Position numbers and translations under genes: made by a program
Notes under the pieces: generated by a model
What the model was told of the DNA's origin: nothing
The model's database searches: none
What the model saw: only the letters and a program-made list of their open reading frames with translations
NCBI RefSeq assembly: GCF_033095865.1
Contig: NZ_AP019365.1
Coordinates: forward strand, 2,577,501-2,641,500
Reading direction: 5' to 3'
From: Pseudomonas sp. KU43P
GTDB lineage: Bacteria > Pseudomonadota > Gammaproteobacteria > Pseudomonadales > Pseudomonadaceae
DNA: 64,000 bases
Shown: positions 50,382 to 53,939 of the stretch, one piece after another
Numbering within the stretch: position 1 is the first letter of the stretch
Layout: the number at the start of each line of letters is the position of its first letter

Positions 50382-51158
50382 GTGAGCGAAAAAGACGCGC
50401 GGCAGCAGCATCCGCAGTTCATCGAGACCCTGGAAAAAGGTATCCGCGTGCTGGAGATCTTCCGCGACGGCCAGCCTTCGCTGGGCCTGACCGAGCTGGC
50501 CGACGCCTGCGAGATGACCAAGAGCGCGGCCCAACGCTTCACCCATACCTGGTGCGAGCTGGGTTACCTGGCCAAGGACGAACGCTCACGGCGCTACAGC
50601 CTGACCCACAAGGCGCTGGAGCTGGGCTTTCTGTACCTCAACGCCTCGCCGCTGATCAGCCGCGCATTGCCCGCGCTCAAGCTGATCCGCGAGCGCTGCA
50701 ACCTCACCGTCAACCTGTCGGTCCTCAGCGGGCACGACATCGTCTATGTCATGCGCATTCCAGGCCCCAACCAGACCCACGCCGAGATGTTGCCAGGCCG
50801 CCGTATGCCAGCCTGGTGTACCTCGGCAGGCCGCGTGCTGCTGGCCGACCTGCCGCCCAGCCGGGTGCAGACGAGCTTGGCGCAGGTGACGCCGGTGGCC
50901 TACACCGCGCAGACAGAAGTGGACCGCGAAGTGTTGTTCGAGCGGGTGCAGGAGGCTGGCCGCAACGGCTACGCGCTCACCCGCGACCAGGTACTGGTAG
51001 GGCAGGTGGGCATCGCTGCGCCGATTCGCAACGTGCACTTCCAGGTCGTGGCGGCGATCAACATCACCGCCCAGCTCAGTGCCTGGCCGGTGGAGAAGGT
51101 GGAACAGGAGCTGGTGCCCCTGCTGATGGAAGTGAGCCAGGCGGTGAGCATCGGCTGA
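50382..51158 (+). CDS. IclR-family transcriptional regulator
   Basis: 258-residue IclR-type regulator: winged HTH about 12-75 (IETLEKGIRVLEIFRDGQPS ... MTKSAAQRFTHTW) and an effector GAF-like domain with ALTRDQVLVGQVGIAAPIRN. GTG 50382 is preferred because GGAGGC lies about 10 bases upstream and the family N-terminus fits. Divergent from the amidase gene, which it probably controls. Confidence 0.87.
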   Translation: MSEKDARQQHPQFIETLEKGIRVLEIFRDGQPSLGLTELADACEMTKSAAQRFTHTWCELGYLAKDERSRRYSLTHKALELGFLYLNASPLISRALPALKLIRERCNLTVNLSVLSGHDIVYVMRIPGPNQTHAEMLPGRRMPAWCTSAGRVLLADLPPSRVQTSLAQVTPVAYTAQTEVDREVLFERVQEAGRNGYALTRDQVLVGQVGIAAPIRNVHFQVVAAINITAQLSAWPVEKVEQELVPLLMEVSQAVSIG

Positions 51159-51344
51159 GCCGCTGTATCACTGTGTATCTCGCATCCTGCAAGACCGCTT
51201 CGCTTACAAATCCCCCAGCCTCCTGATACGCCCCGGATACAGGCCTGAGGCCAAATGAGCCAGCCCGAACGAACAGCCAGACGGCGACGTTCCCTGGCGC
51301 ATTTTGCCCTCGCGGCATGACCGTACCCATTCAGGAGCAGCACC

Positions 51345-51809
51345 ATGACCCGTACCCAACGTACCAACAAGACCCGCCTCGGCCTGCTGGGCATCGCTTT
51401 GCTCGGTGGCATCAACCTCACCGCGTCTGCCTTCGCGGTCGAGCCACTGCCTCAGGGCTATCAGCTCGCCGCCGCGGAAAAAACCGGCGAGGGCAAATGT
51501 GGCGAAGGCAAATGCGGCGCCAGTGGCGCCTCGGCCAAGGCCACCCAGGCCGAGGGCAAGTGCGGTGAAGGCAAGTGCGGCGACGCTTCGTTCGCACGGA
51601 CCGACAGCGACCATGATGGCCGGGTGTCCCGCACCGAACTGCTGGCGGTCGCCCCAGGCGCCAATGCCGAATTCGACGCGATCGACGCCGATCACGATGG
51701 CTACCTCTCCGAGGCCGAGGTGTACCAGTTCCGCAAGCATCAGTTCGATGCCAACGGCAAGCCGTTCCCCAGCGACCTCTACAGCAAGCTGAGCCAGGCC
51801 AGGAACTGA
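51345..51809 (+). CDS. hvfA: HvfA/bufferin-type copper-RiPP precursor fused to an EF-hand pair
   Basis: 154-residue secreted precursor. Signal peptide to about residue 31 ([11 protein letters not shown]). The core holds four EGKCG motifs as two tandem doublets, with C52/C57 and C73/C78, the only cysteines. They are joined by an Ala/Ser/Lys linker. In HvfA and related bufferins such cysteines become thiooxazoles that bind copper. Downstream lie two perfect EF-hand loops: D87-x-D89-x-D91-G...E98 and D114-x-D116-x-D118-G...E125. Modification genes follow directly. The EF-hand fusion is unusual for the family as I know it. CAGGAG precedes the ATG. Confidence 0.88.
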
Positions 51810-51822
51810 CGCTCGCCGGCAT

Positions 51823-51847
51823 CCTCCCCGGCGCCATGCCGGGGAGG
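51823..51847. terminator. Strong hairpin between RiPP precursor and modification genes
   Basis: CCTCCCCGGC-GCCAT-GCCGGGGAGG, a perfect 10-bp GC stem with a 5-base loop and no U-tract, in the 64-bp gap after the precursor gene. It probably attenuates read-through and stabilises the 5' mRNA so that precursor is made in excess over enzymes. Confidence 0.65.
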
Positions 51848-51873
51848 GCACCTCACCCCAAGGAGCCTGCTCC

Positions 51874-52713
51874 ATGACCACACCTTCCACCCTGCAGGGC
51901 GCCGGCCTTGGCCTTCGCCGTGCACTGCTGCCCGAACTGCTGGCCCTGGACACAGGGGCCGTGGATTTTCTCGAATGCGCCCCGGAAAACTGGATCGGTG
52001 TCGGTGGTGCCCATGGCCAAGGCCTGGCGCAGCTGGCCGAGCGCTTTACGCTGGCCTGCCACGGCTTGTCGCTTTCGTTGGGCGGCCCGGCACCGCTCGA
52101 TCACGGCTTTGTGCGGCAGATTCGAGGGTTTCTCGACCGTCATCGGGTGGCGCTGTTCAGCGAACACCTGAGCTACTGCACCGATGACGGCCACCTCTAC
52201 GACCTGATCCCCATGCCGTTCACCGACGAAGCCGTGCGCCATACCGCCCGACGCATCGGCGAAGTGCAAGACGCCCTGGGCCGGCGTATCGCCGTGGAAA
52301 ACATTTCCTACTACGCCGCGCCCTATCAGGCGATGAGCGAGATCGACTTTCTCCGCGCGGTGTTGAGCGAAGCAGACTGCGACCTGCTGCTGGACATCAA
52401 CAACCTGGTGGTCAACGCCTGTAACCACCGTTACGACGCCAGCCGGTTCCTCGTCCAGTTACCGCCTGAACGGGTAGCATGCCTGCACGTGGCCGGGCAT
52501 TACGACGAAGCACCGGGGCTGAAGATCGACACCCATGGCGCGAGCGTCCAGGCCGATGTCTGGGCCTTGCTTGCCGATGCCTACCAGTACCTGGGACCGC
52601 GCCCGACCTTGCTGGAGCGCGACTTCAATCTGCCGCCGCTGCCCGATTTGCTAGAAGAGGTGCAACACATTCGCAACCTGCAAACCCCGGTAAAGGCGCT
52701 GCGCCATGGCTGA
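51874..52713 (+). CDS. hvfB: DUF692 metalloenzyme (HvfB/MbnB-like)
   Basis: 279-residue DUF692 TIM-barrel iron enzyme. Metal-site and substrate motifs include [55 protein letters not shown] and [10 protein letters not shown]. Family members MbnB, TglH and HvfB oxidatively modify peptidyl cysteines with mixed-valent iron. Here the substrate should be the EGKCG cysteines of the preceding gene. AAGGAG precedes the start. The 3' end overlaps the partner gene by 8 bases. Confidence 0.9.
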
Positions 52714-53440
52714 CACCCTGCAAGCACAGTTGTTGTGCATGAGCCGCCATATCCGCGACCCTCAGGCCAACCCGCCGCCGCCAGGGGTAGAGGCACGGCG
52801 CCTGGCGGTTTACCGGCAGTTGTTCTTCGGCAACCTGCAGTCGATGCTGGCGGGGAGTTTTCCGGTGTTGAGGGCCTGCCTTGGGCCCGAGCAATGGCGG
52901 GCGCTGATCGAAGACTTCTACGCCCATCATCGTTGCCAAACCCCGTTGTTCACCGAATTGGCAGGGGAGTTGGTGGACTATCTGCACGCCCGTGCTGATC
53001 CACCGGGCTGGGTGGCGGAACTGGCCCATTACGAGTGGATCGAGACGGTGTTGCTGCTGAGCGACGCGTGCGACCCGGAAGACGAGACCACTGCCGACGT
53101 GCTGAATGACGTGCCGATGCTGTCCGGGCTGGCCATCCCGTTGGCCTATGCCTGGCCGGTCAGCCAGATCGGGCCGGGGCGCATCCCACCAGAGGTGCCG
53201 CAGGCGCCGACACGGGTGCTGGCTTACCGAGGCGCGGACCTGAAGGTGCACTTCTCGCGTTTGGCGCCATTGGCCCATGCGTTACTGGTGTCGCTGCAAG
53301 AGCAGCGCTGCAGCGGGCGTGACCATCTTGCTGCTCTGGCGCAGAGGGCAGGTGTCGAAGAGACGCAGATCGAGCCGCAAGGGCGGGCTTTGTTGAATGC
53401 CTTGCGGGCCCAAGGTGTGGTGATTGCGTTGGCGGGGTAG
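52706..53440 (+). CDS. hvfC: DUF2063 partner protein (HvfC/BufC-like)
   Basis: 244-residue protein. The N-terminal DUF2063 helical domain (about 5-95, [20 protein letters not shown] ... [16 protein letters not shown]) is labelled DNA-binding in databases, but in RiPP systems it recognises the precursor. A C-terminal partner domain follows ([18 protein letters not shown]). It overlaps hvfB, as expected for an obligate HvfBC complex. No DoxX-like hvfD gene follows; the next gene is convergent. Confidence 0.87.
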
Positions 53441-53459: not shown

Positions 53460-53939
53460 TTACCCCTGAGCAAACTGCCGCAGCTTCTCGCCATCGAGCC
53501 GATAGCGAATCCACTCATCCTGTGGCTCGGCCCCCAGCGACTGGTAGAAACCGATGGCCGGTTCATTCCAGTCCAGCACGCTCCACTCCAAGCGCCCACA
53601 GCCGTTCTCGACCGCCTCGCGAGCAATGTGCTGCAGCACCCTGCGCCCGGCACCGCCACCGCGTTGCTCGGGGGTGATGTACACGTCTTCCAGGTAGATG
53701 CCATTGCGCCCCAGCCAGGTCGAGTAGCTGTAGAAGTACACGGCAAACCCAATTGGCTGCCCATCGCGCTCGCAGATCAGGCTGTGCACCGTGCTGCCTT
53801 CCTCGAACAGGGTGCGTTCGATATCGTTGACGCTGGCGATCACTTCATGGCGGGCACGCTCGTACTCGGCCAGCTCGGTGATGAACGCCAGGATCTGCGC
53901 GGCGTCGGTGCGTACCGCAGGGCGAATGTTGAGGCTCAT
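53460..53939 (-). CDS. GNAT-family N-acetyltransferase
   Basis: 159-residue GNAT enzyme. The acetyl-CoA motif is EQRGGGAGRRVLQHIAREAV, and WNEPAIGFYQSLGAEPQDEW is the C-terminal signature shared with the diamine/thialysine acetyltransferases (SSAT-like: LAEYERARHEVIAS, YLEDVYITPEQRG). It probably acetylates a polyamine or thialysine-like amine. Divergent from a LysE exporter with a palindromic operator between them. Confidence 0.87.
   Translation of the reverse strand: MSLNIRPAVRTDAAQILAFITELAEYERARHEVIASVNDIERTLFEEGSTVHSLICERDGQPIGFAVYFYSYSTWLGRNGIYLEDVYITPEQRGGGAGRRVLQHIAREAVENGCGRLEWSVLDWNEPAIGFYQSLGAEPQDEWIRYRLDGEKLRQFAQG

Follow-up and report, generated by a model that had tools for sequence, protein, structure and literature searches.

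The three-gene operon at positions 51345 to 53440 of the window, the 64,000-nucleotide stretch of Pseudomonas sp. KU43P DNA analysed here, probably encodes an EfhP-type HvfABC system, in which modified EGKCG doublets would bind copper and a pair of EF-hands would bind calcium within one folded periplasmic protein switched on by BfmR. It belongs, as an EfhP-type locus, to a subclass that has already been described. The fusion itself was known; what we add is a promoter element found in cis and in trans, a fixed spacing between the last cysteine and the first calcium loop, and EF-hand pairs that are sandwiched between EGKCG motifs.

Gene content of the operon

The open reading frame listing of the window gives three genes on the + strand. 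The first (51345–51809), assigned by ORF call and profile matches, encodes a precursor of the HvfA/EfhP type with 154 residues. Its residues 1–31 (51345–51437, ending in ASAFA) read by eye as a Sec-type signal peptide and precede two EGKCG doublets, with C52 and C57 at 51489–51518 and C73 and C78 at 51552–51581, which match the NCBIfam family NF050137 (KCGExKCG_twice) in two stretches (E = 2.7e-10, 39.7 bits, cut-off 19.5). Two canonical EF-hand calcium loops occupy residues 87–98 (51603–51638) and 114–125 (51684–51719) according to the sequence, AlphaFold2 and Pfam, where EF-hand_5 matched two stretches (E = 7.9e-9). The score with the full-length HvfA equivalog NF050188 was 36.7 bits, under the 95-bit cut-off. 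The second gene (51874–52713) encodes an MNIO (DUF692) maturase of the HvfB class (331.5 bits with PF05114; 410.9 bits with the HvfB family NF003818, cut-off 360). The third (52706–53440) overlaps hvfB by 8 bases and encodes HvfC, a DUF2063 partner protein (PF09836 DUF2063 and PF22106; 256.7 bits with NF050145 HvfC, cut-off 142). Reading frames and profiles agree on the layout given in the preliminary description, a three-gene operon with a precursor made of a signal peptide, two EGKCG doublets and two canonical EF-hand loops. We do not regard the combination of EGKCG motifs and EF-hands as a chance arrangement, because two independent profile families match within one ORF and the precursor has 1587 protein matches at E ≤ 0.001. 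Among the best 120 of these matches, several relatives are already named 'HvfA family' in NCBI and UniProt.

Upstream, a gene for an IclR-type regulator ends at 51158 (PcaR-class score 216.8, below the cut-off of 284.75), and downstream lies a convergent GNAT acetyltransferase gene (53460–53939, − strand). The host genome (5.87 Mb, one contig) encodes one further MNIO, about 240 kb away. The cluster around it (L093, 2385500–2396500) contains a secreted-looking peptide of 92 residues with four cysteines, the MNIO, one gene that resembles DUF2063 and others that resemble sigma and anti-sigma genes, and by eye it looks like a Buf1 bufferin cluster.

Relation to EfhP and to described HvfA proteins

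The fusion of EGKCG and EF-hand_5 domains is described in PMC12452194 with P. aeruginosa as an example. The chimaera in that paper has a hydrophobic N-terminal segment, a short EGKCG domain lacking 17-residue repeats, two C-terminal EF-hand_5 domains and associated MNIO genes; the precursor of the window, in which two EF-hand_5 domains likewise lie C-terminal to a short EGKCG domain, shows no difference from it as far as the available text of the paper describes it. That part of the text mentions neither EF-hand pairs between doublets nor BfmR. The preliminary description had put forward EF-tailed HvfA as a new fusion, to be given up if such proteins were already a described, common subclass. 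They are one, as shown by PMC12452194 and by matches to the precursor in 135 of 298 genomes sampled from the genus (E ≤ 0.001; weaker matches include EGKCG-only proteins).

In 2014, PMC4053335 noted the order efhP-DUF692-DUF2063 for P. aeruginosa and for P. putida W619. By published descriptions of PA4107, our precursor corresponds to EfhP in its architecture, the positions of its loops, its operon and its promoter element: EfhP has 155 residues and the precursor 154, both have four EGKCG repeats, and the calcium loops lie at 88–99 and 115–126 in EfhP and at 87–98 and 114–125 here. In both species DUF692 and DUF2063 genes follow (PA4106 and PA4105, called hypothetical in PMC4148453), and in P. 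aeruginosa the operon is under BfmR control. There, bfmRS and PA4103-4104 are neighbours of the efhP locus, whereas the host carries their counterparts elsewhere in the genome. Haemophilus influenzae HvfA/oxazolin and fontiphorin, which are 5-thiooxazole metallophores, share with the window the EGKCG motifs and the HvfB and HvfC families, but the available accounts leave EF-hands unmentioned and the precursor of the window has a pair. EGKCG peptides are converted to 5-thiooxazoles (PMC12668002, journal version PMC13097082), their products generally bind copper (PMC12668002), and HvfBC favours a full-length precursor with its Sec signal (PMC13419390). An MNIO survey mentions EfhP briefly, and the literature, in the parts available, yielded no report that an EF-tailed precursor is modified.

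Distribution and linkage of precursor and maturases

We compared loci in three sets picked from match lists, which are not random samples: a genus set (L094–L171), a named set (L220–L299), which has some species in common with the genus set, and a class sample (L330–L369; 40 loci, taken from the 98 of 369 genomes that matched). Within the best 80 of at least 298 named loci, EF-type precursors occur in Rheinheimera, Stenotrophomonas, Lysobacter, Luteimonas, Pseudoxanthomonas and Steroidobacter. Among the 298 genus genomes, 250 encode an MNIO and 125 a KCGExKCG motif, and an MNIO is present in all 135 genomes with a precursor match (113 expected, kinship ignored).

This distribution bears on a reading close to that of the EfhP authors, in which the protein is a calcium sensor and the EGKCG cysteines stay unmodified, sensing iron or redox. 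Dual Ca2+/Fe sensing was proposed from the four EGKCG repeats of EfhP (PMC11559002), and calcium binding with a Kd of 13.7 μM was measured on a form that lacked the signal peptide and was produced in E. coli, as we read it without co-expressed maturases (PMC9132961). Yet precursor and hvfBC share an operon or, where unlinked, a promoter element (see below), and no precursor genome in the sample is without an MNIO. Unmodified cysteines are hard to reconcile with this linkage and with an MNIO in every precursor genome, and we consider a pure sensor unlikely.

Conservation and placement of the EF-hand pair

We counted as EF-type those precursors with two calcium loops by a loose pattern, which gave 131 in the fetched sets and the window together; L248 and L354, with one loop each, were left out. 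Calcium loop 2 is strictly canonical in all 131 and loop 1 in 119; the 12 departures in loop 1 count against an EfhP-type HvfABC system. The last cysteine ahead of the EF-hand pair, C78 in the window, lies 9 residues before loop 1 in 107 of the 131 precursors, 6 residues in 15 and at other distances in 9, and the spacers between the doublets vary. In 24 precursors, chiefly from Lysobacteraceae and a few Pseudomonas, the pair is sandwiched between EGKCG motifs (L167, L268–L280, L282–L284, L286, L287, L293, L297, L298, L348 and L369). Two of these (L348 and L369, from two class-sample genomes of one family) branch outside the main EF clade in the MNIO tree and have DoxX in cis. On that tree, built by a quick method with 105 rows, the presence of EF-hands requires at least five changes, three of them forced by starred branches. 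The EF-hand pair is dispensable, since L166 (genome G025) and L281 (Pseudomonas shirazensis) have EF-less precursors in operons nested within the EF-tail lineage.

Two genomes hold additional copies: in G025 there is, besides L166, a copy with an EF tail (L094), next to which no hvfBC was found, and L097 (G204) has two near-identical EF-tailed precursor genes in tandem, with no hvfBC in the locus. Near the C-terminus of the precursor, residues 137–145 (51753–51779) form a conserved NGKxxPxxL stretch (columns at least 90%), which in an alignment with the sandwiched form L167 falls opposite that form's C-terminal EGKCG doublet; to judge from this alignment, the EF-tail form may have descended from a sandwiched form.

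AlphaFold2 folded only the EF-hand pair, the sole usable part of two models of low confidence (mean pLDDT 59.7 and 58.9), and left the EGKCG region disordered; the first helix is predicted to start at residue 80, directly after C78-G79. The last EGKCG doublet is probably structurally tied to the calcium site. Kinship with XopAW, lanmodulin or a calmodulin-like fold was rejected, as these comparisons returned general EF-hand similarity only (for the fold, best Foldseek E 0.03, none ≤ 0.001). The two ends of an EF-hand pair are close together, and therefore calcium could bring flanking doublets together.

Two further readings of the EF-hand pair are rivals of the EfhP-type HvfABC explanation. 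The pair may be a passive module that serves folding, periplasmic retention or protease protection of a copper RiPP, with no effect of calcium on copper binding. EF-less EGKCG operons are common, the nested members L166 and L281 do without the pair, and a disordered EGKCG region beside a folded pair fits a passive module, which we hold to be a serious possibility at somewhat below even chances; the conserved 9-residue spacing amid variable inter-doublet spacers, and the sandwiched pairs, including those of the separate lineage with DoxX, speak against it. Alternatively, the pair might be a follower domain that is cleaved off after export to release a free EGKCG peptide, and PMC13097082 calls the processing of EGKCG products unclear. 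This seems quite improbable, given that the last EGKCG motif runs into the predicted helix E1, leaving little linker to cut, and that a cut would split the sandwiched architectures.

A BfmR-type promoter element upstream of EF-type precursors

Upstream of the precursor gene lie a BfmR-type tandem site TGTATC-N4-TGTATC (GATACA-N4-GATACA on the other strand) at 51164–51179, with TGTATC starting at 51164 and 51174, and a third half-site GATACA on the + strand at 51236–51241. The BfmR motif has been published as GATACAnnGC (PMC4148453) or TACAA-N3-GATACA (PMC8025907). The top three BfmR ChIP peaks in P. aeruginosa are at bfmRS, PA4103-4104 and efhP-PA4106-PA4105 (PMC8025907).

GATACA on either strand within 250 bases upstream was found in 59 of the 60 EF-type loci of the genus set, which include the window and one sandwiched locus: in 27/27 with hvfBC linked, 27/28 with hvfBC unlinked and 5/5 with hvfBC upstream. 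These loci contain 171 sites where about 9.5 were expected from the same loci. Only 1 of 15 EGKCG-only linked operons of the genus set has the element. It also precedes all four short unlinked EGKCG peptides of that set (L168–L171), which have 65–73 residues, one doublet and DoxX on the same strand, with no hvfBC found in the locus. With a 300-base window in the named set, GATACA was present in 44/48 EF-tail and 5/21 sandwiched loci, and also in 4/11 EF-less or one-loop loci, which counts against the EfhP-type HvfABC explanation. In the class sample, with the same window, it was present in 1/2 sandwiched and 4/38 EF-less loci (4 sites, 4.5 expected).

Trans partners carrying the same element

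A further comparison covered 32 loci. Unlinked hvfBC pairs whose HvfB is 61–63% identical to that of the window carry the element within 300 bases in 20 of 20 cases; it is absent from all six MNIOs that are more distant (L192, L203, L213, L216, L217 and L219) and come from such genomes. Where the gene order is B-C-A, hvfB is preceded by the element in 1 of 4 loci, which counts against an EfhP-type HvfABC system. Two loci stayed outside these counts: L212, in which hvfB follows a linked EF-less precursor with no site directly before hvfB, and L218, with no HvfB match. That separately located precursors (27/28) and hvfBC pairs (20/20) both carry the element counts in favour of the system.

In 25 genomes chosen for an EGKCG precursor, the exact tandem site was located at 69 places, against 3 for the reversed-pattern control. 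Forty-seven of these places precede an EGKCG precursor (22, one of them, in G025, EF-less), bfmR (16), hvfB (8) or a ferric-reductase-like gene (1); the bfmR-like genes are 84–88% identical and comprise 14 distinct genes. G262 and G211 each have two bfmR-like genes behind exact tandem sites, and there are also genomes that have bfmR-like genes only a few kb away from an EF-type operon. The remaining 22 places (for example L379, L388, L405 and L427) precede genes outside the tested classes, which counts against the EfhP-type HvfABC explanation; these genes are possibly further regulon members.

Allowing up to one mismatch, the tandem site occurs at four places in the host genome, and the reversed control at none. 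Besides the operon itself, it precedes an operon of a ferric-reductase-like gene (PF01794) and a DoxX gene (PF07681), a response-regulator gene (bfmR) followed by a second gene, and, at 845908 and with one mismatch, an MFS gene, where it is likely a chance occurrence. The regulator (L373) is 91% identical over 99% to a P. aeruginosa protein named BfmR. The gene after it looks like its kinase; the part of that gene covered had no Pfam match. From sequence alone, three of the four host sites, those at the precursor operon, bfmR and the ferric-reductase-like operon, correspond to the strongest three ChIP peaks reported for BfmR in P. aeruginosa.

It could be argued that the shared GATACA sites are inherited sequence that has no function, as many loci are close relatives and most rows are not independent. 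However, the element lies upstream of genes that are not homologous to one another (precursor, hvfB, bfmR and ferric-reductase-like) in the same genomes, it is missing from 14 of the 15 EGKCG-only linked operons in the genus set, and the reversed control gave 3 sites against 69, which makes functionless inheritance very improbable. It appears that EfhP, HvfBC and BfmRS belong to a single system, and that its components retain a shared promoter element even where they lie scattered.

DoxX in cis and in trans

The Haemophilus operon includes a DoxX-like gene, HvfX, and the operon of the window does not; no DoxX follows hvfC in cis, a feature of the Haemophilus layout that is not strictly defining. 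The earlier statement that no DoxX-like fourth gene follows is thus true of the locus but falls short for the genome, which carries the ferric-reductase-like and DoxX operon behind the same promoter element. Because the tandem element precedes both operons, the DoxX gene there is a candidate for a trans counterpart of the 'missing' one. As a universal trans part, this operon was rejected: it had a match in 11 of 26 genomes, 8 of them clear, with GATACA upstream in 7 of the 8 and DoxX adjoining in 5 of the 8.

DoxX was counted on the precursor strand from −400 to +4200 bases of the precursor stop. Among EGKCG-only linked operons, 18/20 from the genus and named sets and 17/29 from the class sample (one ended by a contig end) have it, compared with 0/64 and 2/2 EF-type linked operons, respectively. 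We nevertheless reject the causal claim that the EF-hand tail replaces DoxX, because the tree gives only three to five independent pairs and no significance. The whole fetched loci also count against a replacement: among linked EF-tail loci, DoxX is on the other strand in 9/26 from the genus set, and of the 17 from the named set 8 have it on the other strand and 4 on the same strand.

Proposed mechanism and implications

We infer that the EGKCG doublets would be modified in the cytoplasm by HvfB and HvfC, their cysteines most likely becoming 5-thiooxazoles, with the Sec signal as the probable leader. The whole protein would then be exported to the periplasm, where the doublets would bind copper and the EF-hand pair calcium; the product would stay one folded protein, with no small peptides released. 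BfmR, by binding at its sites in this species, would switch the operon on together with bfmRS itself and the ferric-reductase-like/DoxX operon in trans.

BfmRS is known as a biofilm and virulence switch. More tentatively, and with the odds against it, EfhP-type proteins could be calcium-gated copper metallophores, in which a calcium-folded EF-hand pair positions the adjoining thiooxazole doublet or doublets. BfmRS would then be at heart a dedicated envelope-stress or metal regulator of the RiPP, its maturases and, in some species, the ferric-reductase-like/DoxX membrane pair.

Three literatures meet at this one locus, those on the EfhP calcium sensor, on the BfmRS virulence and biofilm switch and on the HvfABC makers of copper RiPPs. 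Should the cysteines be modified, half of the chemistry of EfhP would have been missing from the recombinant protein, which was produced without the signal peptide and, as we read the published work, without maturases; copper, calcium and the product itself would then offer a direct way to test for the signal for BfmS.
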